Source: Rubrivivax sp. (GTDB taxonomy: Bacteria > Pseudomonadota > Gammaproteobacteria > Burkholderiales > Burkholderiaceae_C). From it: 64,000 bases of DNA. Position numbers and translations under genes: made by a program. Location: positions 310,001 to 374,000 of the forward strand of contig JAIXSE010000021.1 in assembly GCA_027484825.1 (NCBI GenBank), read 5' to 3'. This document shows, piece by piece, positions 48,707 through 63,534 of this stretch (its first letter is position 1; the number at the start of each line of letters is the position of its first letter). The notes beneath the pieces were generated by a model, which saw only the letters and a list, made by a program, of their open reading frames with translations, was not told where the DNA came from and ran no database searches.

Positions 48707-48868
48707 GTTGGAATCTCCTTGTCTGATCGATGAGCGCTTGTCGGGGCCGACACGCGCTCGTGGCGGAGTATCTCCGCTCGGGCTGGCTCAGGGGCAAGAA
48801 TCAGTCCTGCAACGCTGCAGGGCCGTGCGGGTGGTGAGTGGCGCGGGGTGACGGAATGTGAGGGGCGC

Positions 48869-48924
48869 AAGAGGTGGAGCGTAAGAGGTCCAGCGTAAGA
48901 GGTCCAGCGTAAGAGGTCCAGCGT
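48869..48924 (-). repeat. 14-bp tandem repeat, 4 units plus partial (AAGAGGTCCAGCGT)
   Basis: AAGAGGTGGAGCGT then three exact AAGAGGTCCAGCGT, then AAGAG. Confidence 0.97.
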
Positions 48925-48952
48925 AAGAGAAGCAGAGCGCTGACGCAAAGCC

Positions 48953-50152
48953 TCAGAGCGCCGCGACCAGCTCGCGATACCGGCTGAAGAGCCGCACCCG
49001 ACGCTCGGGCCCGTGCAGCGGACCGTCCTCCATCAACGCGCCCCGGTACCGCGCCAGCTCGCGCGAGACCCCGGCCACCGCATCCTGCCCGCGGACATGC
49101 TGTGCCGCGATCAGCCAATGCGTCAGCCAGCCGGTCAACACCGGGCGTGGCAGGCTGGCCAGCACCTGGGCCAAGTCCTTGGACAGCGCCACTTCCCGTG
49201 GTGCATGCAGGGCCTGCAGGCGCAGCAGGCGGGCCACCAGGGCCGGGTCGGTGTCCGCCACCATCGACAGCGCTTCCGGTCCGGCGCCCTCCGCCAGCAT
49301 CTGATGCAGCAGCCCCAGCACGCGGGAACGGCAGCCAGGCAGGGCCGGCACTTGTTTGACGATCGGGCGTTGAATGCCGTAGCCCTGGAACAGCTGGGCG
49401 CCCATCGCGGCCAATTCAGCGATCTGCTCCTGCGTCTCGACCTTCTCGGCCACCACGGTCAGCCCTGCCGCGCGAGCCAGCGCGATGATGGGGCGGATCT
49501 GGTCGGGGGCGGTGGCGCGGACATCGATCTTGATGCTCTCCACATATTCGGCCAGCACCCAGCGCGGGTCGTCAGTTGATTCCACATCGTCCAGCGAGAA
49601 GCGATAGCCGCGTTGATGCAGGGCTTGCACCCGTCGTTGCACGGCCGCCGTCGGCGTGATGGTTTCGAGCAGTTCGATGACGCCCAGATCGGGTGTGATC
49701 ACCTCCACCATCGGGCTCAGCAGACTCCGCTCGTCCATGTTGACGTAGAGCGTGCCGACCGGCTGGGCCTGCGGGTCTTGCGTCAGCAGTTGGCCGTCGA
49801 TCAGGGCATGGCTGAGGGCGGAGGCGGTGGCGTATGCGCCCAAGGTCGGGTGGACCGGTGCCTCTGCACTGTTCCAGCGGAACAGCAGTTCATGGCCGAG
49901 CACCCGCCCATTGGCCGCCACGAGAGGTTGCACGGCGAAGCGGAGGTGGGGGGTGGCGTGCTCGAGGTCCGCCGCCGGGACTTGCGCGACAGGCGCAGGA
50001 GGGCGCTGGACCTTTGGCGGCACCGGGGCGGTGGGGACCGCGGGACTGGCCGCGCGCTCGCATGTCCAGCCCTGCAGGCTGGAAGGGGGTGTGCTCGTCC
50101 AGAGAGAGGCCGAAGTCGGCGGATTGCGTCGAGAGAAATCGTCCGTCCACAT
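48953..50152 (-). CDS. EAL-HDOD (YuxH-like) domain protein, EAL hallmarks largely retained
   Basis: GHELLFRW, VNMDE, IELLET, FSLDDVES, IKIDV, VVAEKVET, FQGYGI; HDOD-like C-terminal half. Confidence 0.82.
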   Translation of the reverse strand: MWTDDFSRRNPPTSASLWTSTPPSSLQGWTCERAASPAVPTAPVPPKVQRPPAPVAQVPAADLEHATPHLRFAVQPLVAANGRVLGHELLFRWNSAEAPVHPTLGAYATASALSHALIDGQLLTQDPQAQPVGTLYVNMDERSLLSPMVEVITPDLGVIELLETITPTAAVQRRVQALHQRGYRFSLDDVESTDDPRWVLAEYVESIKIDVRATAPDQIRPIIALARAAGLTVVAEKVETQEQIAELAAMGAQLFQGYGIQRPIVKQVPALPGCRSRVLGLLHQMLAEGAGPEALSMVADTDPALVARLLRLQALHAPREVALSKDLAQVLASLPRPVLTGWLTHWLIAAQHVRGQDAVAGVSRELARYRGALMEDGPLHGPERRVRLFSRYRELVAAL

Positions 50153-50295
50153 GATGCTGCCCTGCTAGGTTTCATTGAGCCTCATGCTAGGGATTGGGCC
50201 TCTCGAGGCGAATAACCCAAGGAGGTCGGTCACTTCGCTCGACTAGCAAATGTTTGCAGTCGGGCCGCCATTCGAGGGCGCGTGTGTCGAGCCTC

Positions 50296-50332
50296 AAAAA
50301 AACAAGCCCCGACCTGTTGCGCAGATCGGGGC
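50296..50332 (-). terminator. intrinsic terminator downstream of the LuxR-type regulator/T1SS gene set
   Basis: Minus strand GCCCCGATCTGCGCAACAGGTCGGGGCTTGTTTTTTT. Confidence 0.88.
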
Positions 50333-50351
50333 CGATGGGGGCTGGTGGAGG

Positions 50352-51020
50352 TCAGTCGTCCACCAGACCATGCATGCGGGCCACGCTGGTGGCCATTGCC
50401 CGGGAATTGACATTCAGCTTCCGATAGATGGACCGCAGATGCTGATTGACGGTGAAGCGCGAGATGGACAGGCGGTTGCCGATGTCGACAATGGGCAGGC
50501 CCTCGATCAACAGGTTCAGCACGCTCCATTCCCGCTGACCCAGCCCCAGTTCCTTGAGCTTCTGGCTGCGGTCGACCTTGGGTTTCACACCGGTCTCCAG
50601 GCTCTCCAGCTTCTCCAGCACCAGGCGGGACACCGCCGGGCTCAAGGGCGCATGGCCGTTGTGGGTGGCGATGATCTTCTCGATCAACGACGGCTGGATC
50701 TCCTCCTTGAGCAGGTAGCCGGTCGCCCCTGCCCGCAGGCTGCGCATGACATGTTTGGAGTCACCGAAGGTGCTCACCACAATGCTGTGGGCATCGGGAC
50801 ACTTCTCCTTGATCAGCTTGATCAGGTCAATGCCATCGACATCGGGCAGGCCGAGATCCACCAGATAGATGTCGGCCCGGTTGGCGAGGATGGCGGACAC
50901 CGCCTCGCCGCGGTTGCGGCCGATGCCGACGATCTGGCAGGCGCTGCTGGCCGACACGACGTCGATCAGGCGCTGCAGCACGTTGGCGTCGTCTTCAATG
51001 ATGGTGACGGAAATGGTCAT
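50352..51020 (-). CDS. NarL/FixJ (LuxR-type) response regulator
   Basis: VTIIEDDANVLQRLID, DIYLVDLGLPDVDGIDLI, HTH GQREWSVLNLLIEGLPIVDIGNRLSISRFTVNQHLRSIYRKLNVNSR. Confidence 0.92.
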   Translation of the reverse strand: MTISVTIIEDDANVLQRLIDVVSASSACQIVGIGRNRGEAVSAILANRADIYLVDLGLPDVDGIDLIKLIKEKCPDAHSIVVSTFGDSKHVMRSLRAGATGYLLKEEIQPSLIEKIIATHNGHAPLSPAVSRLVLEKLESLETGVKPKVDRSQKLKELGLGQREWSVLNLLIEGLPIVDIGNRLSISRFTVNQHLRSIYRKLNVNSRAMATSVARMHGLVDD

Positions 51021-51134
51021 GAGAGTCCCTCTTGTAGGGTCGGGGTTGTGGCAGTCAGGACTGGGGCGCGGGCACCGGGCCTGCACGGATCAGGTGGGTG
51101 TCAGTGGGACGAACCACCTTCATGAGCATGAGCA

Positions 51135-52292
51135 TCAGCGCTCCCCCATCGACTCCGACAGTGTTTTCTTGACCGGTTTGAGCAAGTAGTCCAAAACGGT
51201 GTGCTTGCCTGTGATGATTTCGGCAGTGGCCGTCATGCCGGGTTGGACCTTGATCGTGTCGGCCAACGCTCCCTTGAACCGGTGGCCGGTGATGCGGATG
51301 TGAGTGCGGTAGTAGGGGACTTCCACTCCTTGCGGGGTGCGTTCGGTCAAGGCATCAGGACTGATATAGGTCACTTCGCCCTGCAAACTGCCATAGATGC
51401 TGTAGTCAAAAGCATCCAGCTTGACCGTGGCGTGCATGCCGGGGCGTACAAAACCGATGTCCGCAGCCTTGAGCCGGCTCTCAATGATCAGGTCGTCCCC
51501 GGTGGGCAGGAGCTGCATGATCTCGTCCCCGGGGCGCAGCACCGCGCCCAGCGTGGTCTGGGTGATCAGGTTGACGATGCCGTCCTGCGGCGCACGCAAT
51601 TGGGTGTGTTCCACCATGCCCCGACGGTCATTCAGTTGCTGGTGGACAGACGCCAGGTCTTCTTCCGTCTTGGCCAGCTCGGCTTGGGCGTCCTGTAGGA
51701 ACTTGTTGCGGCGGGTGGTTACCTGGCCGGCAGCCTCGTTGGCGGTACGCTGCAGGCGCAGGAATTCGGCAGCGCTGATGTCGCCGGCCTTGAAGAGGGG
51801 TTCGTTCAGGCGGACTTCCTCGGCGGCGAGACGGGTGGACTTTTCCAGCACGGCCAGGTCTTCCTGCAGCGCCGTCTGGCGGCGTTCGTACAGGCGACCC
51901 TGCATGGTGTCGAAACTGGTCTGGGCCCGCGGCTGGTAGGCCGTGCCCAGGGTTTCGGCGCGCAGACGGGACAGCGATGCCTGCAGCGCAGCGGATTTCT
52001 GGCTGGCCTCGGCCAGCGCGGCTTTGGACTTGGTGTCGTCCAGTTGCACCAGCAGGTCGCCCTGCTTCACCGTCTCACCTTCGCGCACAAAGATCTTCTC
52101 CACGATGCCTCCATCGGCGGCCTGGATCACCTGCGTCCGTGAGGATGCCATGACCTTGCCGGTTGTGCGAGTCACCTCATCAATGCTCGCGCGGGAGGCC
52201 CAGAAGGCGCCTGCGCCCAGGACGGTGACGACGGCGAGCATGGTGAAGCGGATGCGGTGGGCGCTGTGGCGGGTGAATGCGGAATCGTTCAT
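51135..52292 (-). CDS. T1SS membrane fusion protein (HlyD family)
   Basis: TGKVMASSRTQVIQAADGGIVEKIFVREGETVKQGDLLVQLD, YRTHIRITGHRFKG, IKVQPGMTATAEIITGKHTVLDYLLKPV. Confidence 0.93.
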   Translation of the reverse strand: MNDSAFTRHSAHRIRFTMLAVVTVLGAGAFWASRASIDEVTRTTGKVMASSRTQVIQAADGGIVEKIFVREGETVKQGDLLVQLDDTKSKAALAEASQKSAALQASLSRLRAETLGTAYQPRAQTSFDTMQGRLYERRQTALQEDLAVLEKSTRLAAEEVRLNEPLFKAGDISAAEFLRLQRTANEAAGQVTTRRNKFLQDAQAELAKTEEDLASVHQQLNDRRGMVEHTQLRAPQDGIVNLITQTTLGAVLRPGDEIMQLLPTGDDLIIESRLKAADIGFVRPGMHATVKLDAFDYSIYGSLQGEVTYISPDALTERTPQGVEVPYYRTHIRITGHRFKGALADTIKVQPGMTATAEIITGKHTVLDYLLKPVKKTLSESMGER

Positions 52293-52316
52293 GACTATTC
52301 TCCTGGGGACGTGCGG

Positions 52317-54662
52317 TCAGGCGGTGGTGGTGGCGCAGGCCTCTTGGGTGGCCGCATGGGGCGCGCCAGCCTGGATGCCGGCCGCTGGCTTGTGCCTCAC
52401 TGGGTTGAGCGTGATGGTGGCCGCAGAGGGCACGCCGGTGCCCGGGCGCACCACAGCGGGCTGTGGACGACCGCTCACCGCAGCTGCAGAAGCGGGCGCC
52501 GCATCGGGACGCTGACGCAGACGCGCCAGCACCTCGTCGCGCGGGCCGTCCATGGCGATGCCACCCGGCGTCATCACGATCACCCGATCCACCAGCGCCA
52601 GCAGCGACAGGCGATGGGTCACCAGCAGCAGCGTGGTGTCGGCCTGCAGGGCCGCTTTCAGCTGGGCGATGGTGGCCTGCTCCATGCCGTCGTCCATGCT
52701 GGCGGTGGGCTCGTCCAGCAGCCAGTGGCGTCGGCCGGCCAGCAGCAAGCGGGTCAGCATCACCTGTTGACGCTGGCCGCCCGACAGACCACGTCCTCCC
52801 TCGGTCAGCTTGCGATCCAGACCCATCGGATGCTGGGCAATGAGGCCGAGCAGGCCGGTCTTACCGGCAGCAGCCAGGATCTGTTCGTCGCTGACGTCGG
52901 TCAGGCCGAAGGCCAGGTTGTCCCGCAAGGTGCCGGCGAACAGCCAGGCTTGCTGCGGGCAGTAGGCCATGTGCGCACTGCGCCAGTCCGCATGCAGTTG
53001 CTGCTGGTCGACCCCGCCGAAATAGACGGTGCCGGCGGTGGGCTTGGTCATGCCGCAGGCCAGCGCCAGCAGGGTGGACTTGCCGGCCCCGACGGTGCCG
53101 AGAATGGCCACCTTCTCGCCGGAGCGCACCCGCAGGTTGCCCACACGGATGGCCTGCTTCTGGCCCGGATAAGCGAATTCCACGTCCTCGAAGACGAAGT
53201 CGCCGTCGGTGTGTTCCGGCACCAGGGGCCGGGCCACGTCGTGGTTATCGGTTTCCAGGCGGAAGATCGCATCCAGCGCTTTCATGGCGCTGATCGCGTT
53301 GCCCACTTGCACCAGCAGCCCGGGAATCATGGCCATCGGGGCCAGCACACGGCCGGACAGGATGGAGCAGGCCACGATCGCGCCCTGGGTGATCTGGCCG
53401 TCCACGGCCAGGACCGCGCCGATGCAGATCAGCGCGACATAACTCACCTGCTGCAGGCCGGCGGCGAGGTAACCCGCGGCATCCGTCTCATGCTTGAGCG
53501 CCAGGCTCTGCACGGCGTTGGCGTCGGACAGTCCGGCCCAGCGGGCTTCGAAGCGCCATGCGGCCCCCATGCCCTTGATGGCTTCCGCTCCTTCAATGGC
53601 CTCCACCAGCAAGCCAGTCTTGGCGTTCGCACCGGTCTGGTTGCTGGCCGTCAGGCGCGCAATGCGGCGGGCACGCAGCAAGCCGGTCAACAGCATCAGG
53701 CCGAACAGCACGACCGCCGGCAACGCCAGCAGGGGCCCGCCCACGGCGGCGATGACCAGGGCGAACAGAAGCGCCAGCGGCAGGTCGAACAGCAGGAAGA
53801 GAGTGGACGTGGACAGGATGGCGCGGATCGATTCAAAGCTCTGGATCTGCGAGGCCAGCGTGCCGATCGACCCAGGGCGCTGGTCCATGCGAACCGCATT
53901 GAGGCGGCTCATCAGGGCCTTCGAGATGCTGACGTCGAGGGACTTCAGCCGTGGTTCCAGCAGTCCCGCGCGTGCCAGCTTCAGCAGCCACTCCAGGCCG
54001 ATGGCCAGCGCCACCCCCAGCGTCAGCACCCACAGGGTCTGCAGACCCTGGTTGGGGATGACGCGGTCGTACACCTGCATGGTGTAGAAGCTCACGCCGA
54101 TGCTGACGGCCGCCAGCACCAGGGACAGGCAGGCCGATTCCAGAAACACCGGCCAGTTCCCGCGCAGTTGACTCATCATCAGGCCGCGTGCGCTGCGGAT
54201 GTCGCTGCGATCGGCGGCGTGATCTTCAATGGCGTGCAGGCAGGGGCAGGCGTTCAGGACCAGCTCATGGCGAGCGCCTTGGGCGTCGATGCAGCGCCAC
54301 AGGCCTTCCACCGTGCGGGCAGTGATCACCAGCCAGCCGTGCTCGGCATGGTGGGTGAGCAGTGGCAGGGCGGCTTGCTGGGGAGCTTTGAGCGACACGA
54401 AGCGGGTCTGCTCATCCAGCGCAACCGCCAGGCGCCGGGCCAGGGTGAGGCCCGACGCGCTGGAGGACCCAGCCTGGGACGGGGCCGTTGCTCCAGCGTT
54501 CGACGCCGTGGTTGTGAGCGTCATCAACTGCTGCCGGATGCGATCCGCCGGCAGGGCGCTGCCCTTGAGGCGCATCCAGTGCTGGAAGCAATGGGCCAGC
54601 GCAGCGTGGTCCTGCGTGACATCGGAAGCGACCGGCGGCCGCGAAGAGAAGAAGCGGAACAT
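52317..54662 (-). CDS. T1SS ABC ATPase/permease with N-terminal C39-like domain (LssB/LapB-like)
   Basis: SFYTMQVYDRVIPNQGLQTLWVLTLGV, KVAILGTVGAGKST, GLSGGQRQQVMLTRLLLAGRRHWLLDEPTASMD; start either 54662 (MFRFF) or ATGA-overlapping 54764. Confidence 0.92.
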   Translation of the reverse strand: MFRFFSSRPPVASDVTQDHAALAHCFQHWMRLKGSALPADRIRQQLMTLTTTASNAGATAPSQAGSSSASGLTLARRLAVALDEQTRFVSLKAPQQAALPLLTHHAEHGWLVITARTVEGLWRCIDAQGARHELVLNACPCLHAIEDHAADRSDIRSARGLMMSQLRGNWPVFLESACLSLVLAAVSIGVSFYTMQVYDRVIPNQGLQTLWVLTLGVALAIGLEWLLKLARAGLLEPRLKSLDVSISKALMSRLNAVRMDQRPGSIGTLASQIQSFESIRAILSTSTLFLLFDLPLALLFALVIAAVGGPLLALPAVVLFGLMLLTGLLRARRIARLTASNQTGANAKTGLLVEAIEGAEAIKGMGAAWRFEARWAGLSDANAVQSLALKHETDAAGYLAAGLQQVSYVALICIGAVLAVDGQITQGAIVACSILSGRVLAPMAMIPGLLVQVGNAISAMKALDAIFRLETDNHDVARPLVPEHTDGDFVFEDVEFAYPGQKQAIRVGNLRVRSGEKVAILGTVGAGKSTLLALACGMTKPTAGTVYFGGVDQQQLHADWRSAHMAYCPQQAWLFAGTLRDNLAFGLTDVSDEQILAAAGKTGLLGLIAQHPMGLDRKLTEGGRGLSGGQRQQVMLTRLLLAGRRHWLLDEPTASMDDGMEQATIAQLKAALQADTTLLLVTHRLSLLALVDRVIVMTPGGIAMDGPRDEVLARLRQRPDAAPASAAAVSGRPQPAVVRPGTGVPSAATITLNPVRHKPAAGIQAGAPHAATQEACATTTA

Positions 54663-54760
54663 GAGGCCAACCTTTCTGGGAACTGTGAGGAGATGGGGAG
54701 GGCTGCGGTGTCGGCCGTCGTGGGCCGTCGGCGACGCGGCGTGCGGGTGCGTGGGGCCCC

Positions 54761-56161
54761 TCATTCCGAGCGGGTGTCCATCAGGACGCGCAGCCGGTAG
54801 AGGCTGGCGCGCTCTTCCACGGCGGCTTCGTGCAGCGACTGCCGGGCGCTGTGGTTCTCTCGCACCATATTGAGCAGGTCCAGCCAGGCGCGTTTGCCGG
54901 CGGCAAATTGGCGCTGATAGGAGGCGAGCACCTGGTCGCTGCTGGCGGCCGTGTTCACCGCGCTTCGGGCGGTGGCACTGGCCGAGGCGTAGCGGGTGAA
55001 CTCCAGCTGATAGCGGCTGAAAAGGTCCTGCTCCGTCGCCGCGACGGCGGCCTGAGCGGCCAGGATGCGGCTGCGTGCGGCATTGATGCCGGCCAGCGTG
55101 CCCAGCCCGCCGGAGAGTCCGGACTGCAGCACCAGCCCGACGCGTCGGTCACTGGCCACGCCGGTCTGTTTGTCGATCCGCAGGCTCAGCGTGGGCAGCA
55201 GACTGGCTTTGGACTTCGCCAGTTCCTGATGCGCCAGATCAACGCCCGCGCGGGCGATGGCCATGTCCGGCGACAGCTGGATGCTGTCCAGCATGCCGGC
55301 CAGCGTGGGGGCAGGGGGCGCATCACCGTCCAGCGCATGCAGCAAGGACGGGGCCACCGGGCGGTGCGCCAGCCGCTGCAATTGCTGGCGCTGCATGTCC
55401 GATTCCAGGCGTGCCTGGGTCCATTCCGCCTGAACGGCGCTCAGCCGGGCCGCGGCCAGCGCTGCATCCGACTGCGTGGCCGTGCCGGCGCTGGCACGCC
55501 GCTGGATCATCGCCAGCAGATCCTGGTGCTGGCGGGTGAGCTGTTCGAGGCTGGCGGCACGCCGGCTGGACTTGACCCAGTCGGCCCAGGTGCTCACCAG
55601 GGTGATCTTGAGCTGGCGTCGGACCGCGGCCAGTTCCTGGCGGCTGCTGGTCACCGAGATCTGCGCCGCGCGCAAACCGGCCGTCAGGGCGCCACCGGTG
55701 TAGAGGGGCTGCTGGATGCGCAGCACCTGAACGTAGCCGCTGCCGCTGGGTTCCACCGTCAGACTGGGCGTGGGGCCGAACTGCCACTTGGCAGCGGTGA
55801 CACCCTGCTGCGCCGCGTCCATGTTGGCGCGGGCACGGTCCATGGAGGGATCGGCGGTGAGGGCGCTGGTGATGAAATCATCCATCGCGTGGCCCCAGGG
55901 GAGTGCTGCTGCGTCAGCGACCGGAGCCGTTGCCGTGATGGCGTCTCGCCCCACGTTGTCATCGGCAGGCTCGCGAGGGCGGTCCAGCCCGGTGGTCACG
56001 ACGTCCGTGGCGACCGCCTCGGACGGTGCGGGTTCCGCGCCCAGGGCCGGAGCCGACGCCAAAGCGCTCACGATCAAACCAATCAGCCAGTGGTTTTTTG
56101 CAGCAAATACACTGATTTGGGGGTAATGGGCAACGGATCTAATCAGGCGGCTGGTTGTCAT
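54761..56161 (-). CDS. TolC-family outer-membrane protein of T1SS
   Basis: VLRIQQPLYTGGALTAGLRAAQISVTSSRQEL, RRASAGTATQSDAALAAARLSAVQAEW. Confidence 0.9.
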   Translation of the reverse strand: MTTSRLIRSVAHYPQISVFAAKNHWLIGLIVSALASAPALGAEPAPSEAVATDVVTTGLDRPREPADDNVGRDAITATAPVADAAALPWGHAMDDFITSALTADPSMDRARANMDAAQQGVTAAKWQFGPTPSLTVEPSGSGYVQVLRIQQPLYTGGALTAGLRAAQISVTSSRQELAAVRRQLKITLVSTWADWVKSSRRAASLEQLTRQHQDLLAMIQRRASAGTATQSDAALAAARLSAVQAEWTQARLESDMQRQQLQRLAHRPVAPSLLHALDGDAPPAPTLAGMLDSIQLSPDMAIARAGVDLAHQELAKSKASLLPTLSLRIDKQTGVASDRRVGLVLQSGLSGGLGTLAGINAARSRILAAQAAVAATEQDLFSRYQLEFTRYASASATARSAVNTAASSDQVLASYQRQFAAGKRAWLDLLNMVRENHSARQSLHEAAVEERASLYRLRVLMDTRSE

Positions 56162-56383
56162 GGGAAAACTCTCCGGGCTGGGGTATGCCGAGAGTTTCGA
56201 GCGCCGCTTGTACAGCGAACAATAGCATCTATGTGCTAGTTAATCGCAAGGTGTTGGGCCTTTGTCGGGCATAGGTGGCGCAGGCTAGCAAGAATTTGTT
56301 GGTGATGCCCCCTGGAAATGGGTCCAACGGCCAATGAATCCTCAGACCATGCGGCAATACCCCGTCGCTGTCCCCAAGGAATG

Positions 56384-56421
56384 GGAGTTGCCGAAGTGGG
56401 ACATCCCACTTTGGAGTTGCC
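56384..56421 (+). promoter_or_regulatory. palindrome flanked by direct repeats at the start of the Cys-rich copper-storage-like gene
   Basis: GGAGTTGCC-G-AAGTGGGA-CA-TCCCACTT-T-GGAGTTGCC-ATG; 8-bp perfect inverted repeat, 9-bp direct repeats. Confidence 0.75.
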
Positions 56422-56793
56422 ATGAAAACCGATCCCACCACGGAAGACCTGTCCGCCTGTGTCAGCGCCTGTCTGGCCGCCCTTGAACAGACGCAAGCCT
56501 GCGCCAACGCCTGCATTCGCTCCGGCGACCGGGCCCTGGAGTCCTGTGCGCTGGCGGCGCTGGACTGTGCGGCCATCTGTCAGGCCACACTGAATGTCTT
56601 GCTGCGCCAGTCTGACCATCACGGTGATTTCTGCGCGCTGTGTCAGCACATCTGCCAGGCCTGCGCCGAGATCTGCGAACAGCATCAGCATGCCCATTGC
56701 CGCCGCTGCGCAGCAGCCTGCCGGGCTTGCGAACGTGCCTGCGCGGTGCATGCCGGTGAACGTCACGCTTTGCCAGGCGCCGAGGGGGAGTGA
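56422..56793 (+). CDS. Cys-rich four-helix-bundle copper-storage-like protein (Csp/DUF326-like)
   Basis: 17 Cys in 123 aa with CxxxC helical spacing: CVSACLA, CANACIRSG, CALAALDCAAIC, CALCQHICQACAEIC, CRRCAAACRACERAC. Confidence 0.87.
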   Translation: MKTDPTTEDLSACVSACLAALEQTQACANACIRSGDRALESCALAALDCAAICQATLNVLLRQSDHHGDFCALCQHICQACAEICEQHQHAHCRRCAAACRACERACAVHAGERHALPGAEGE

Positions 56794-56867
56794 TGGCAGC
56801 AATTTGCTATTTGAGCGCAATTCTTTGGTAATTGTGGATGGTTTGCGCGTAAGGCTTGCTATCCAAG

Positions 56868-56913
56868 TCCGCAGTCGGGTTTTATAGAATTTTCTTCGTT
56901 GCCCGACTGCGGA
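56868..56913. promoter_or_regulatory. 12-bp perfect inverted repeat with 22-nt AT-rich spacer
   Basis: TCCGCAGTCGGG (56868-56879) and CCCGACTGCGGA (56902-56913). Confidence 0.7.
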
Positions 56914-57072
56914 ATATCTTAATTTTCAGAGTTTATTAAATCCTTCTTCCAATCTCCGGTTTCAATTAAAAACTGCGGGGTTGGATACTGGATTGATCGT
57001 GGTTTTCAGCGGTTGGGTGCATCGCTGCGGCCTTATCGGGTCCGCATTTGCGCCACCCACTTTTGAAGTGCC

Positions 57073-60000
57073 ATGACTCATTCCGCCATCACCCCGGACC
57101 GCCCGGTCTCCTCGCTGAACACCACTGGTTCTGTTCTCGCAACGGCGCTCAACGATGTAGCGGCTGCAACGTTCCTCCGTCAGCGGCACTCCGGAAGGGC
57201 CGCTCCGCTTCAGAACGCCATGGTGGACGCGCTGGCGGGTCAGGATCTGTCCAAGACCATGGCGGCAGACAAGGCGCGCCTCAAGCGCCTGACAGACGAG
57301 TCCGACCCTCTCGATGCGGCCTCCGACCGTGACCCCTCGTCAGCGCCGAACGCCGACGCGGACGATGGGGCGGCCACGCCTGCGCTCAATGACGGCGCCG
57401 ACGCGTTGACTGGCCCCACAACTTCATCCAGCCCATCCAGCCCCTTCACTGAGCCCGTTGCGTCCGACGACGATGACCGCCACAAAGGCCTCGCGCTGTG
57501 GGCGCTGGCCGGCGCGGCAGGCATCGGTGGAATTGCCATGCTGGCAGGCAGCGGGAAGTCCGCCTCAGGTGACCAAGCGCCCGCGGGCCAGCCCCCAGTG
57601 GGGAATGGCAGCGGCGCGCCCACCCCTGATGAACCGGTCTCTGTCATCCCTGGCACCCCCTTGCCCCCCGACGACGGCACCGTGCCACCGCCTGCTCCGA
57701 GCCTCCCCCCGGCACCGCCCCCGCGCGCCGGCCACCTGAGCCTGCAACTGGCGGCCGACACGGGCCGCAGCGCCGTGGACCAGATCACCGCCAACCCGCA
57801 GTTTCAGCTGCAGGTGGTGGGCGCCGATCCCGATACCAGCGTGCGCTACCAGTATTCGCTGGACGGCGGAAAAACCTGGCAGGACAACACCGCGCTGACC
57901 TCGCCCTGGCCGGATGGCCACTATCTGCTGCGCGCCGTCGTCAGCAATGGCGACTCAGCCTCCATCACCGCGCCGGTCGCCCTGACGCTGGACAGTCAGG
58001 CCCCCGCCGCCGCGGACCTCCTGGTGTCCGGAACACCCGTCCAGGGGCAGGTGCTGCTGGCCATGAATGGCGTCGAAGCGGATGCTTCAAGCGCCTACGA
58101 GATCTCGCTGGACCAGGGGCAGACCTGGCAGCGCACCCAGGCGTCGCTCACAGCGCTTCTGGACGGTGACTACCTGTTCCGGGGTGTCGTCACCGACGCC
58201 GCCGGTAACCAAAGCGTCACGGCGGTGCAGTCCGTCACCGTGGACACCGCCGCGCCGGCCCCGATGACGCTGCAACTGCGGAAGGTGGGCGAGCAGGGCT
58301 GGGATGCACTTTCGCCGCTGAGCAGCACCGGTGCGGTCGATCTGAAGGTGGCGCTGCCACCGGGCACCACGGCCGTGTATCAACAGTCGTCCGACAACGG
58401 CCAGACATGGGCCACCGTGTCCTCCAGCATCCGCAATCTGGCGGAGGGCAGCTACAGCTTCCGCGCCCTCGTGCAGGACGCCGCTGGCAATGAGACCGTG
58501 CTGGACCCGGTGCCGCTCACGGTCGACAAGACCCCACTGCCAGCCCTGAGCATTTCCGCCCTGTTGCAGAACGGTCAGGGAGACGCCCAGAGCGGCTACC
58601 TCAGCCACGATGGCAGCTTCCAGATCACCCCGGACCGCACGGACGCCAACGCCCAGGTCCTTTATCAGTTCCGCCTGGAGGGGGCCACGGCCTGGCGCCC
58701 GACCAGTGCCCAGGTGGACGGTCTGCTGGATGGTCGTTATGAATACCGGGTGGGCTTTCGCGACCCCGCGGGCAACATGACGTATTCCAACACCCTGGCG
58801 GTGGAAGTCGACACCCGGCGCACGGGCGCCGGCACGATCACCCTGGGGAACTTCGTCGACTCCGGCGTCAACGAAGCGGACCGCATCACCGCCGACAACA
58901 CCTTCACCCTGGTCCACCGGCCCAGCGGTACGGCCACGGCCATTCAGTGGCAGCGCAGCCTGGACAATGGCGACACCTGGTCGGCAACGACGACCTCCCA
59001 ATCCAATCTCCGGGACGGCCACTACCTGTACCGGGCGGTCGTGACCGACGATCAGGGCCAAAGCTTCACCACCCGCAGCCTGAACGTCACCGTCGATGTG
59101 CTGCCACCGTCGGCCGCCACACTGACCGTGCAGGACCTGGACGACACCGGTTCTGCGAGCGATGACTTCATCACGCAGGACGGCCGCTTCAACCTGGGCC
59201 TGCTGAACCCCGACCCGGCCGCGAAAACCACTTTCGAGGTGTCCTACACCGGCAGCGGGGGATGGTTCACCACGTCCGCAGAGCAGGACCTGGCGTCAGG
59301 CAGCTACTGGTTCCGTGCCGCCTCCGTGGACGTGTCCGGCGTGAACAGCGTCAGCAAGGCGGTGAAGGTCGTCGTGGACCGTGACGCCCCGGCCGCTGCT
59401 CCTCTGCAACTCCATGACTTCGACGATACCGGCGCCGTGGGCGACCGCCTGACCTCTGACACCGACTTCACTCTCAGCACCCCCCCACTCGAAGCCGGCG
59501 CCACTGTTCGCTTTTGGCGTTCCACCGATGGCGGTGCGACATGGGCCACGACCGATGCGGCCCAGCAAGGGCTGGCGGACGGCGACTACTGGTTCCGCAC
59601 CGAGGTCACCGACCTGGCGGGCAACACCCGGCTTGGAGAGCCGCGTCTGGTCACGGTGGACACCACGGCCCCGCAAGCAGGCACCCTGACCGTCATGGCC
59701 AGCAGCGCCGCTGGCGTGGACCTGCAATGGACGGGCGAGGAAACCCCTGACACGCTCACCTATCAGGTCTCCACGGACCAGGGCCAGACCTGGCTGCCCG
59801 TGCTCGTTCATAGCGAGGGTTTGTCGGCCGGTGACTATCTGTTCCGCGCGGTGGCAACCGATGCCGCCGGCAATGCGGCCACTTCCGCCCCTGTGGCCTG
59901 GCAAATTGCCCCGCAGACCGCGGACGCCACCAGCGTCGGCGCGCTGGCCCCCGGGTGGGTGCAGGCCCCTGAGGCCCCTGAGATCACCCAGCACGCGCTC

Positions 60001-60114
60001 TCGTCCACAGAGGCGCTGTGGGTGACTTCCCTGACCGGCAGTCCTTTCGCGCCCCCGCTCGACGGTGCGCTCCTGAACGCCGCGCCCGTGCTTCCCCCCG
60101 TGGCAGGCGTCTGA
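57073..60114 (+). CDS. 1013-aa Ig-like repeat protein with N-terminal hydrophobic segment; candidate T1SS cargo/adhesin
   Basis: GLALWALAGAAGIGGIAMLAGSG helix, Pro-rich linker, eight repeats of the type W...L.DG.Y.FRA.V.D.AGN...VDT.AP. Confidence 0.85.
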   Translation: MTHSAITPDRPVSSLNTTGSVLATALNDVAAATFLRQRHSGRAAPLQNAMVDALAGQDLSKTMAADKARLKRLTDESDPLDAASDRDPSSAPNADADDGAATPALNDGADALTGPTTSSSPSSPFTEPVASDDDDRHKGLALWALAGAAGIGGIAMLAGSGKSASGDQAPAGQPPVGNGSGAPTPDEPVSVIPGTPLPPDDGTVPPPAPSLPPAPPPRAGHLSLQLAADTGRSAVDQITANPQFQLQVVGADPDTSVRYQYSLDGGKTWQDNTALTSPWPDGHYLLRAVVSNGDSASITAPVALTLDSQAPAAADLLVSGTPVQGQVLLAMNGVEADASSAYEISLDQGQTWQRTQASLTALLDGDYLFRGVVTDAAGNQSVTAVQSVTVDTAAPAPMTLQLRKVGEQGWDALSPLSSTGAVDLKVALPPGTTAVYQQSSDNGQTWATVSSSIRNLAEGSYSFRALVQDAAGNETVLDPVPLTVDKTPLPALSISALLQNGQGDAQSGYLSHDGSFQITPDRTDANAQVLYQFRLEGATAWRPTSAQVDGLLDGRYEYRVGFRDPAGNMTYSNTLAVEVDTRRTGAGTITLGNFVDSGVNEADRITADNTFTLVHRPSGTATAIQWQRSLDNGDTWSATTTSQSNLRDGHYLYRAVVTDDQGQSFTTRSLNVTVDVLPPSAATLTVQDLDDTGSASDDFITQDGRFNLGLLNPDPAAKTTFEVSYTGSGGWFTTSAEQDLASGSYWFRAASVDVSGVNSVSKAVKVVVDRDAPAAAPLQLHDFDDTGAVGDRLTSDTDFTLSTPPLEAGATVRFWRSTDGGATWATTDAAQQGLADGDYWFRTEVTDLAGNTRLGEPRLVTVDTTAPQAGTLTVMASSAAGVDLQWTGEETPDTLTYQVSTDQGQTWLPVLVHSEGLSAGDYLFRAVATDAAGNAATSAPVAWQIAPQTADATSVGALAPGWVQAPEAPEITQHALSSTEALWVTSLTGSPFAPPLDGALLNAAPVLPPVAGV

Positions 60115-60144
60115 CGCCCCAGCCCTCACCGTTAGGACATCGCC

Positions 60145-61371
60145 ATGTACGACCCCTCCACATTCCGTCTCTCCAGCGCATCAAGCTTCTCCGGCGCCGC
60201 CGTCGCCCCGGTTCCGGCCTTGGAGGGCGTGTTCGACGGCGCGCTGGATTCCGCACTGGACTCCACCCCGCCTCCCCAGTCGCCCGCCGTTGATTCGGCC
60301 CTCCAACCCACCGGGCGGATCACGTCCCGACCCGGCCCGCTCGGCCAGGGCGCCGAGCGACGCTTTGCGCTGCTGGACATCGCCGATGACCATGGCCGCG
60401 TGCACAGCCGCGACCTGCTGTTCCGTCGAGACAGCATGCTGCCCGCTTCCGACGACGGCGAATCGGTCACCCGCGTGTGCTGCGCCCTGGCCAACGCCCT
60501 GCTGGAGGGCTACGCGGCCAACAGCCTGCCGACCGGCGAGTTGATGGTGCCGATGGACGAGGCCGCGCTGAGTGCGCCGGTCGCCCGGGTGGTGACCCCG
60601 GCGGTGGGGGTCATCCTGCTTCCGGCCTCGCTGCCGGTGACCACGCAAGTGCTGATGCGGGTGGCCCAACTGCGGTCCCTGGGCATCCGCTTCAGCATGG
60701 ACGGCGTCAGCGGTGTGGACGACCCGCGCTGGTTGCTGTCGCCCTATGCCGACTCGGTCCGACTGCATCTGGATCGCACCCCGTCGGACGTGCTCAATGC
60801 GCTGGTCGCCCGTGCCGATGCGGAGGGGCTGGAAGTGATCGGCTGCGGCGTCCAGTCCATGATGGGCTATCGACGTCTGGAACATCTGGTGGTGACCCGG
60901 CTGCAAGGGCCGGTGATTGCAGCACCGCTGGAGTTGATCGTTCCCGCCTTGCCGACCTGTGACCCGGCGGTGCTGCGACGTATCCAGCTGCTGCAGGCCA
61001 ACCATGTGTCGGCGCAGGCGACGGCGGTGGCTTTGTCCGCTGACCCGGCCTTGGTGATGCGGCTGTTGTTGCTGCATCGTGTCTACGGCGGGGGACGGCA
61101 GGAGGACCCGGGGTCCCTGGCGGCCCTGGTGAAGTCGCTGCCTCCCGGCGTTCTGACGGCCTGGCTGGACATCCTGCAACGGACCGCCTGTCACGGCCAC
61201 CATGCCGGCTGGAGCAAGGCCGTCCGGGACCAGGTGGAGGTCTATCAGCGCGCCGCCTTGCGCAGCAGTGACGCTCAGGACCGTGAGGCCGTCGATGCCT
61301 CTGTCTGGCTGTTCATGCGGCGCCTCTGCAGCCCGGCGCACTATCTCAAGACGCTTCGCTATCCCGCCTGA
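60145..61371 (+). CDS. degenerate EAL-HDOD-like pseudoenzyme, paralog of the 48953-50152 product
   Basis: Collinear with the paralog (HSRDLLFRRDS, LMVPMDEAAL, IRFSMDGVSGVDDPRWLLSPYADSVRLHLD) but hallmark residues replaced. Confidence 0.75.
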   Translation: MYDPSTFRLSSASSFSGAAVAPVPALEGVFDGALDSALDSTPPPQSPAVDSALQPTGRITSRPGPLGQGAERRFALLDIADDHGRVHSRDLLFRRDSMLPASDDGESVTRVCCALANALLEGYAANSLPTGELMVPMDEAALSAPVARVVTPAVGVILLPASLPVTTQVLMRVAQLRSLGIRFSMDGVSGVDDPRWLLSPYADSVRLHLDRTPSDVLNALVARADAEGLEVIGCGVQSMMGYRRLEHLVVTRLQGPVIAAPLELIVPALPTCDPAVLRRIQLLQANHVSAQATAVALSADPALVMRLLLLHRVYGGGRQEDPGSLAALVKSLPPGVLTAWLDILQRTACHGHHAGWSKAVRDQVEVYQRAALRSSDAQDREAVDASVWLFMRRLCSPAHYLKTLRYPA

Positions 61372-63427
61372 GTGCGGCGGTCGGCGTCGGCGCCTGGACC
61401 AGCGGCAGATCCACCTGGGTCACCGCGCCGGTCTCGGTCAACTGAAAGTCAAAAGTCCCCCCCAGCGCCTGCATGCGCTCCCGCATGTGGGTCAGGCCCA
61501 TGCCGGTGGAAGTGCCGAATGCGGGGCGCTGTGGCAGCGACTGCGCCAGCCCGGACTGGCCGTTGTCGGAGATGCGCAGGCTCATACGGGTGTCCGTCTG
61601 CTGCATCTCAATGCTGATGTGGGTGGCGTTGGCATACTTCAAGGTGTTGGCCACCGTCTCCTCCACCACCCGAAGCAGGTCTTTCGCCCCTTCGTCCAGC
61701 AACACGAACTCGGCGCCTTCAGGCACCTCATACGTCAGCTGGAAGTTCTTGCCGCTCAGCAGGGAGTCCAGGTTGACACAGTAGTCAAACAGGATGTTCT
61801 GGAACTCCCGCTCTTCACGCTGCGGGCTGCTCGACACCAGTCCTCGCACCCCCTGCAGCAGGTCCAGCAGGCTCTGTTCCAGTTGCGCCGCATTCAAGTG
61901 GCCGTCCCGCACCGAAAACAGGGTCGTGACCAAGCGCGAGCCGATGCCGTCGTGCAGCTCGCGATACAGCCGCTCCCGTTCTTCCTGGGCCGCCTCCCGG
62001 CGCTCCAGGCTGCTCTGACGGTCGTAGGCGAGCGTCAGCTCCAGCTCCCGCCGCCGCAGGCTCTCCGTCAGAATCCGATTGGCCTCGCGCACCCGCTGGG
62101 TGCTTTCCCCATACTTCAGCAGATGCACCCGCGCCATCACGATCAGCAGCGGCGGCAGCACCAGATGGGTGAGGTACATCGGGGTGCCCAGCAGTCTGAG
62201 GATGGACCCGGGTGACGCCTCGCTGAGCGGCCCGATGCGATGCGTCATCACCAGAAAATCATGAAAGATCAGCAGGGCGGCCAGGCTCATGTGGATCAGC
62301 AGGAGGATGGCCGGGCCGTTACGGGTGCGGCGCGCATACAGCGCCAGTCGAACCATCACCCAGAGCTGCAGGGGCAGCATCAACCAGATCCAGAAATGGG
62401 CCAGATGGACCTCCCCACGGCTGCCCAAAAACGGGGAGATCAGTGCCGCAGTCGACGACGACAGCGTCACCAGCACCGCCATGGTCCGGCTCAGCGGCTC
62501 CTGGATGAAACGCAGCACAAACAGAATGGTCAGGGCGTTCAGCGCGCCGGTGCAGACGTAAAAGCCCCACAGCCAGGCATCTCGCCAGGCCGCCGGAATG
62601 TGCACCCACAGCGACAGGGTGTAGACCGTGGCCCAGAGCAGCGCCACCGCCCCGATCAGACCGAAAGTGTCGTCCTGCCGGTTGACCGCCCAGATGCCCA
62701 CCATGAACAGCCCGGCCAACAGACAGAAGGCTTTGCTGGCATCGGCCAGGGATCCACCGATGAAGTCCACCACCTCGGTGATGAAGGCAATGGCGCCCAC
62801 ATTCCCAATGTAGACTGGTGAGAAGATGAGATGGGGTTCCCAACTGGTGTACTCGATGACCAGGTGGTTCGGCCCCTGCGGCCTCAGCAGCTTGACTGGC
62901 AGCGGCACCATGATCGGGCGAAACCACATGAAACGGTCGTTGGCCGTGGAGCGCGGAAAGCCGTCCAGCCAGACCCCGTTGAGGTAGACATCCACCCCGT
63001 GCACGGCCTGGCTGATGAGGATGGCCTTGGCTGGACCGCGGAGATGAATTTCGCGGTTGCCCTCCCGCGTGTCGTCGTAGCTGTCGGCCGGCGCCAGGAA
63101 GGGATCCACATCGATGACCAGGCGGGCTTTGCGCAATCGGGTGGCGCCCTCCCGGTGGTCAACGATCGGCAGCATGGCGTCCACCTCGTTGTCCAGCAGC
63201 GGGCCGTCGAATCGCAGGGCATCGGGATCGTCGGGCGGGACGGCTCGCAGTTCGTAGCGCGATGCCTTGCCGATGGTGTGGATCGCCGCCATCTGGGTGC
63301 CGATATTCCACAGCATCAGCCCCATGAACACCAGCATCACGCTGAAGGCCAGGAGCGGACTCCACCAGAATCGACGACCCGCCGGCTCGGTCGATGTCCA
63401 TTCAGGCCATGAAGGAACCGTTGCCAT
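61346..63427 (-). CDS. 7TM-type membrane sensor histidine kinase (NarX/LiaS-like HisKA_3)
   Basis: Multiple TM helices, RERLYRELHDGIGSRLVTTLFSVRDG, VVEETVANTLKYANATHISIEM, GMGLTHMRERMQALGGTFDFQ. Confidence 0.9.
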   Translation of the reverse strand: MATVPSWPEWTSTEPAGRRFWWSPLLAFSVMLVFMGLMLWNIGTQMAAIHTIGKASRYELRAVPPDDPDALRFDGPLLDNEVDAMLPIVDHREGATRLRKARLVIDVDPFLAPADSYDDTREGNREIHLRGPAKAILISQAVHGVDVYLNGVWLDGFPRSTANDRFMWFRPIMVPLPVKLLRPQGPNHLVIEYTSWEPHLIFSPVYIGNVGAIAFITEVVDFIGGSLADASKAFCLLAGLFMVGIWAVNRQDDTFGLIGAVALLWATVYTLSLWVHIPAAWRDAWLWGFYVCTGALNALTILFVLRFIQEPLSRTMAVLVTLSSSTAALISPFLGSRGEVHLAHFWIWLMLPLQLWVMVRLALYARRTRNGPAILLLIHMSLAALLIFHDFLVMTHRIGPLSEASPGSILRLLGTPMYLTHLVLPPLLIVMARVHLLKYGESTQRVREANRILTESLRRRELELTLAYDRQSSLERREAAQEERERLYRELHDGIGSRLVTTLFSVRDGHLNAAQLEQSLLDLLQGVRGLVSSSPQREEREFQNILFDYCVNLDSLLSGKNFQLTYEVPEGAEFVLLDEGAKDLLRVVEETVANTLKYANATHISIEMQQTDTRMSLRISDNGQSGLAQSLPQRPAFGTSTGMGLTHMRERMQALGGTFDFQLTETGAVTQVDLPLVQAPTPTAALRRDSEAS

Positions 63428-63534
63428 CACACCCCCGGAACAGGTGGCTGTCCCGGTCTTCACGAATCGGGACTGCGACTCGGCACCGCTGCTGAAGCGG
63501 CATTCGCTGCCGGGGGAGAAGCGGAGGGCGTCAG

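Follow-up and report, generated by a model that had tools for sequence, protein, structure and literature searches.

A Roseateles type I secretion locus as the probable hub of a genus-specific regulon for adhesins and c-di-GMP turnover

Does a gene block that joins a type I secretion system (T1SS), an Ig-repeat protein, a two-component system and two EAL-HDOD proteins work as one unit, and does that unit end at the borders of the block? Such a block, of nine genes, is encoded at positions 48953-63463 of the window (the 64,000-nucleotide stretch analysed here, on contig C35 of genome G000), as judged from ORF positions and HMM matches (Table 1). The host genome belongs to Roseateles, and its nearest relative, G003, corresponds to R. 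depolymerans DSM 11813; the genus set comprises 16 genomes (G000-G015). An earlier sequence-only reading had described a self-contained locus whose functional coupling was inference. It had placed all nine genes correctly, strands included, and the eight Ig-like repeats and the terminator after the regulator gene are also confirmed. The coupling has since gained evidence from synteny and a shared operator, while the idea of a self-contained locus has to be abandoned.

Table 1. Features of the T1SS locus, with positions in the window
Feature	Position	Strand	Evidence
EH1, EAL-HDOD protein, 399 aa	48953..50152	-	Pfam EAL 6.8e-21
Operator upstream of EH1, GACTAGCAAATGTTTGCAGTCG	50241..50262	.	PWM 21.6, out of sample
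Intrinsic terminator after RR	50305..50333	-	12-pair hairpin, 8 G-C, then TGTTTTTTTG
RR, NarL/LuxR-type response regulator, 222 aa from conserved start	50352..51020	-	Response_reg 9.3e-17, GerE 3.8e-14
HlyD-family T1SS adaptor	51135..52292	-	TIGR01843, 303.6 bits, above cutoff 208.65
LssB-like T1SS ABC permease/ATPase, N-terminus divergent	52317..54764	-	TIGR03375, 605.9 bits, below cutoff 693.1
TolC-family outer-membrane channel, first in TolC-ABC-HlyD-RR run	54761..56161	-	OEP 1.4e-39; 4-bp overlap with ABC gene
T1SS promoter operator, TolC-proximal copy, CAATAGCATCTATGTGCTAGTT	56220..56241	.	conserved between TolC and Csp genus-wide
T1SS promoter operator, distal copy, GGCTAGCAAGAATTTGTTGGTG	56283..56304	.	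perfect palindrome at same place in G004, G008
Csp-like Cys-rich four-helix protein	56422..56793	+	weak DUF326 and Csp1 matches; present in 14/15 loci
Operator-like site upstream of Ig, TGATGGCAGCAATTTGCTATTT	56791..56812	.	PWM 19.0; stronger pre-Ig sites in G001, G003, G014, G015
Ig protein, 8 Big_13 repeats, presumed cargo	57073..60114	+	Pfam Big_13 2.3e-44; hydropathy, alignment
EH2, pseudo-EAL-HDOD	60145..61371	+	catalytic positions, AF2 EAL fold
HK, membrane sensor kinase with HisKA_3/HATPase_c	61346..63463	-	HATPase_c 3.2e-9; HisKA_3 weak

Layout and conservation of the block

The TolC, ABC and HlyD genes form one nearly contiguous run, RR lies 115 bp further on and a strong terminator follows it; TolC-ABC-HlyD-RR is therefore plausibly a single transcript. 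EH2 is probably cotranscribed with the Ig gene (gap 30 bp), and its gene overlaps that of HK tail to tail. Several domain assignments had to be adjusted. LssB is the best model for the ABC protein, in which the 'C39-like' domain previously proposed finds no Pfam C39 match. The protein described as a 7TM sensor kinase does carry HATPase_c and a weak HisKA_3 domain, but no Pfam 7TM-DISM domain. The copper-storage-like protein has the expected matches, but both lie under their curated cutoffs (DUF326, 17.8 versus 20.4 bits; Csp1, 28.8 versus 100). RR combines a REC domain (Response_reg) with GerE, both above the curated cutoff, as in the NarL/LuxR type. Two repeat structures lie between the genes: four direct repeats of GCGTAAGAGGTCCA with 14-nt spacing between OmpA and EH1 (48865-48934), and between Csp and Ig (56868-56913), a perfect inverted repeat of 12 nt, TCCGCAGTCGGG, which encloses a loop of 22 nt and is possibly a terminator or a regulatory hairpin.

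The order OmpA, EH1, RR, HlyD, ABC, TolC is kept in 15 of the 16 genus genomes, and such conservation of gene order and orientation exceeds what chance would leave. G007 lacks the block and has no close EH1 or RR. The T1SS, the Ig gene and both EAL-HDOD genes, which had been expected to co-occur in related genomes, are syntenic in nine of them. This expectation holds only in part, however, as the Ig gene is missing from six of the 15 loci that have the T1SS, RR and EH1 (G005, G006, G008, G009, G010 and G013), and a cargo obligatory in cis is thereby ruled out. Among these Ig-less genomes EH2 is retained in G005 and G009, HK is retained in G006, G010 and G013, and neither was found in G008. For RR the median pairwise identity reaches 92.8% (15 genomes), by far the highest in the block, the values for HlyD, ABC, EH1 and Ig being 77%, 67%, 47% and 37%. 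Sampling of 45 other genera gave no close EH1, and a scan of 200 other family genomes gave no close RR; a wide distribution of the locus in the family was thus not seen. Compared with the other 13 genomes, G000 and G003 carry EH1 in inverted orientation at the same place, and the operator has moved with the gene.

A palindrome shared with giant adhesins in trans

A conserved 20-bp palindrome, ACTAGCAA-N4-TTGCTAGT, marks three places in the locus: the T1SS/Csp promoter and the regions upstream of EH1 and of Ig-EH2. The alignment of the TolC/Csp intergenic region contains this palindrome together with repeated CTAGCAA/TTGCTAG half-sites. A position weight matrix (PWM) was built from the T1SS (TolC/Csp) promoters alone, which come from related genomes and hence are not independent, and was then applied elsewhere. 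Its four top matches in the 64-kb window all fall within the locus (18.3-30.6), the next non-overlapping one scoring 11.6; nothing was found before HK or RR. Sites before Ig reach scores of up to 33 in relatives, and those before EH1 score weakly (4-10) in G002, G004 and several Ig-less-clade genomes. G000, the genome of the window, has degenerate operators (three to four mismatches) and is for this reason one of the 201 family-scan genomes (0/201) that lack the 16-base palindrome at one mismatch or fewer. In the genomes that carry RR, every palindrome with at most one mismatch is located at a T1SS, giant or small-protein promoter; a two-mismatch site also occurs at G013 C47. When up to three mismatches were allowed, the whole-genome search showed no enrichment against the backward control, probably owing to the rarity of CTAG, and operator calls are limited to two mismatches or fewer or to PWM scores. 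Of five three-mismatch sites in G005, G006, G008 and G009, the four other than G008:C1:732531 lie with unrelated genes.

Giant Ig proteins of G004, G013 and G001 are immediately preceded by a perfect or one-mismatch palindrome. For a target-blind test we listed all T1SS_VCA0849 proteins of the genus, 25 matches, and left out four whose 5' end was unreadable or at or beyond a contig end (G002:C44, G004:C25, G009:C167 and G009:C186). For 11 of the 21 readable proteins the PWM gives a score of 9.8 or more at a site about 80-130 bp ahead of the probable start, against an expectation of about 0.07 from the PWM background (10 of 351,378 positions reach that level). Exactly one such giant is present in each of G000, G001, G002, G003, G004, G006, G010, G011, G012, G014 and G015; the site distance in G002 and G015 presumes a start downstream of the first start codon, and the weakest sites are those of G003 (9.8), G012 (12.7) and G002 (14.2). 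In the window's own genome the giant is encoded on C10, in a frame of 2432 aa that starts near 110326 and has a site of 17.5; C6 encodes another Ig protein, of 1048 aa, with a site of 27.0. Five operator-linked giants in trans pass TIGR03661 in hmmscan. No operator-linked giant was found in G005, G008 and G009, though they keep the T1SS. The operator does not extend over all Big_13 proteins: no site precedes the BapA-prefix adhesins or the Big_13 proteins of 683-915 aa.

Other genes were seen next to these sites. In G004, G006 and G010 an operator copy is immediately followed by the gene for a small conserved protein that ends GLVLNGVWVPLA and has no Pfam match (L096 9958-10305, L098 9932-10294, L123-L125). 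Operator-linked giants also have as neighbours a putative lipoprotein of about 200 aa and a homologue of FlgH, the flagellar L-ring protein (L118 13713-14468, where PF02107 matches at 3.5e-49; also L095 9786-10487 and L097 14231-15100).

Which transporter would export these proteins? A canonical LssB T1SS is encoded in all 16 genomes of the genus, on contig C28 in that of the window, and could handle the adhesins while the T1SS of the locus moves something else, the operator then reflecting co-regulation only. The persistence of the locus T1SS in the six Ig-less genomes and the lack of conservation at the C-terminus of the Ig protein in the alignment agree with such a division. It is a serious rival for the export step, but we regard it as rather unlikely, since operator-linked giants are likewise found in the Ig-less G006, G010 and G013, the BapA-prefix adhesins of G002 and G004 are without an operator, and the Ig gene was found only beside the T1SS of this locus. 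Export of the adhesins by the second, LssB-like T1SS remains our preferred reading.

The Ig protein of the window itself consists of an unstructured-looking N-terminus of about 135 residues, a hydrophobic segment, a Pro-rich linker and the Big_13 repeats. It has neither RTX repeats (HemolysinCabind) nor a TIGR03661/T1SS_VCA0849 match, and so does not classify as a T1SS substrate by its own signals. A recognised C-terminal signal being absent, its export is proposed only from the neighbourhood, the operator and the N-terminal layout. Since no N-terminal signal peptide was seen and residues 140-158 form the one hydrophobic stretch (about 19 residues), the protein might instead be anchored in the inner membrane with its Ig repeats in the periplasm. 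This seems improbable in view of the operator-linked giants, which share the N-terminal layout and carry the T1SS_VCA0849 C-terminal signal.

Intact and pseudo-EAL-HDOD proteins and the paralogous cassette

The two EAL-HDOD proteins reported earlier are both present, but they are unlike. EH1 has the complete EAL catalytic set (E88, N138, E160, D188, D189, K208, E236 and Q256), and all eight catalytic or metal-binding residues (E N E D D K E Q) are retained in 13 of 13 EH1 orthologues; it is a probable c-di-GMP phosphodiesterase, judging from these residues. At the same positions EH2 of the window reads D P L D G R C Q, so that most are lost and it does not count as an active EAL protein; its EAL score also stays below the Pfam cutoff (16.2 versus 31.3). 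AF2 models of both proteins show an EAL domain followed by a helical domain (pLDDT 85 each), and in Foldseek the EH1 model matches 3N3T/RocR and that of EH2 matches EAL phosphodiesterases. The HDOD domain after the EAL region has no direct Pfam match in the EAL-HDOD proteins of the block and is detected only by the family profile (PDB 3ljx, 3m1t, 3p3q and 1vqr), in agreement with the AF2 models. Elsewhere in the family, other genera (L056-L060) have tandem EAL-HDOD pairs without a T1SS, whose EAL sites keep E, N, K, E and Q and have lost the DD pair.

All 11 genomes examined for it carry, at another locus and without a T1SS, a co-directional cassette RR2-HK2-EH3. In the window's genome it is L064 (G000:C13:10509-15391), with orthologues L065-L074, and its EH3 has a collagen-like tail. 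HK of the locus is paralogous to HK2, and RR2 is 61-68% identical to RR. EH3 also lacks most EAL catalytic residues and groups with EH2, not with EH1 (support 0.94); kinase, regulator and pseudo-EAL-HDOD protein therefore look like an older unit, and EH1 like a separate line.

The near identity by eye of the recognition-helix segments of RR and RR2, together with the loss of the adjacent HK in G005, G008 and G009, where RR is kept, would fit a palindrome bound by RR2 or by another genus-specific regulator, with RR as a mere neighbour. We think this unlikely, because RR is the only DNA-binding protein of the block and is encoded inside an operator-controlled run, because close RR homologues and near-perfect palindromes are confined to the same genomes, and because cassette-2 promoters have no strong palindrome near RR2. 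Control of cassette 2 by the same operator was rejected for the latter reason; operator-like matches 283 bp upstream in G000, G003 and G012 are probably inside a neighbouring reading frame. RR thus stays the favoured candidate for the palindrome-binding protein.

The proposed regulon and known systems

Gene order, the shared operator, the catalytic residues and the T1SS signals on the giants in trans are established from the sequence. On this basis we infer that a genus-specific regulon under the control of RR probably has its hub in this locus and coordinates the second, LssB-like T1SS with the adhesins that it would export and with a putative c-di-GMP phosphodiesterase. The membrane kinase HK would phosphorylate RR, whose dimers would bind the 20-bp palindrome and activate four sets of targets: the TolC-ABC-HlyD-RR run, in which RR would amplify its own expression, and the Csp-like gene that diverges from it; the Ig adhesin gene and EH2 as a pair; EH1; and a single giant Ig/RTX adhesin that is encoded in trans and bears a C-terminal T1SS signal. 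The adhesins would leave the cell through the T1SS of the locus, and EH1 would lower c-di-GMP as a built-in brake, perhaps via LapD and LapG encoded elsewhere. Since the operator is common to the T1SS, the giant adhesins and the probable c-di-GMP-degrading enzyme, one signal probably turns on the whole adhesion programme. More tentatively, and with odds that we would put well below even, kinase, LuxR-type regulator and a pseudo-EAL-HDOD protein of the EH2/EH3 type may form a three-component switch in which the latter gates the regulator and the intact EH1, under the same operator, feeds back on c-di-GMP. T1SS adhesin output would then be tied transcriptionally to c-di-GMP, and LapD would not be needed.

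With its defined DNA sequence, the proposed regulon makes testable what had been guessed from gene neighbourhood. Its operator connects a transporter with adhesins encoded far off on separate contigs, a link that T1SS annotation commonly misses, and the occurrence of intact and dead EAL-HDOD proteins within one circuit offers a natural contrast that bears on the role of these poorly understood proteins. In the open-access literature we found no paper combining EAL-HDOD proteins with a T1SS, nor one describing an operator that a second T1SS, adhesins encoded in trans and an intact EAL-HDOD protein have in common.

Links between T1SS adhesins and c-di-GMP are already known from the LapA family and BrtA of Bordetella bronchiseptica (PMC4933386). 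The LapA/LapBCE and LapD-LapG system of Pseudomonas fluorescens, like that of BrtA (PMC4933386), resembles the present one in its LssB-type T1SS, here LssB-like, and shares with it giant repeat adhesins and c-di-GMP proteins. LapD and LapG are not encoded here with the T1SS and adhesin, as had been noted; the organism does possess both (LapD_MoxY_N, 8e-34; Peptidase_C93), however, on contig C2, just as it has the canonical LssB T1SS outside the locus. Moreover, no BapA-type N-terminal model match was reported for the operator-linked giants scanned, and the Roseateles link appears to be transcriptional, via a common palindrome and a LuxR-type regulator, with soluble EAL-HDOD proteins. The giants resemble RTX/BapA-like T1SS adhesins (TIGR03661) in their Big_13 repeats and, for most of them, in the T1SS_VCA0849 C-terminal domain, which the window's own Ig protein lacks.

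As in the NarL/LuxR two-component systems NarL, UhpAB, MadRS and MctRS, a REC-GerE regulator is paired with a HisKA_3 kinase and a putative palindromic target of about 20 bp; the differences are the predicted T1SS-adhesin regulon and the paralogous cassette of the same genome, with a pseudo-EAL-HDOD protein as its third gene. A precedent for an EAL-HDOD protein with active phosphodiesterase function is ZpdA of Vibrio cholerae (PMC12607878). ZpdA, CdgJ and VC1851 (PMC12607878) have the same N-terminal EAL and C-terminal HDOD arrangement as EH1, with its full catalytic set. In contrast to the V. cholerae proteins, EH1 appears to be grouped with a T1SS adhesin regulon rather than with Zur and quorum sensing, and has a pseudo-EAL-HDOD paralogue alongside.
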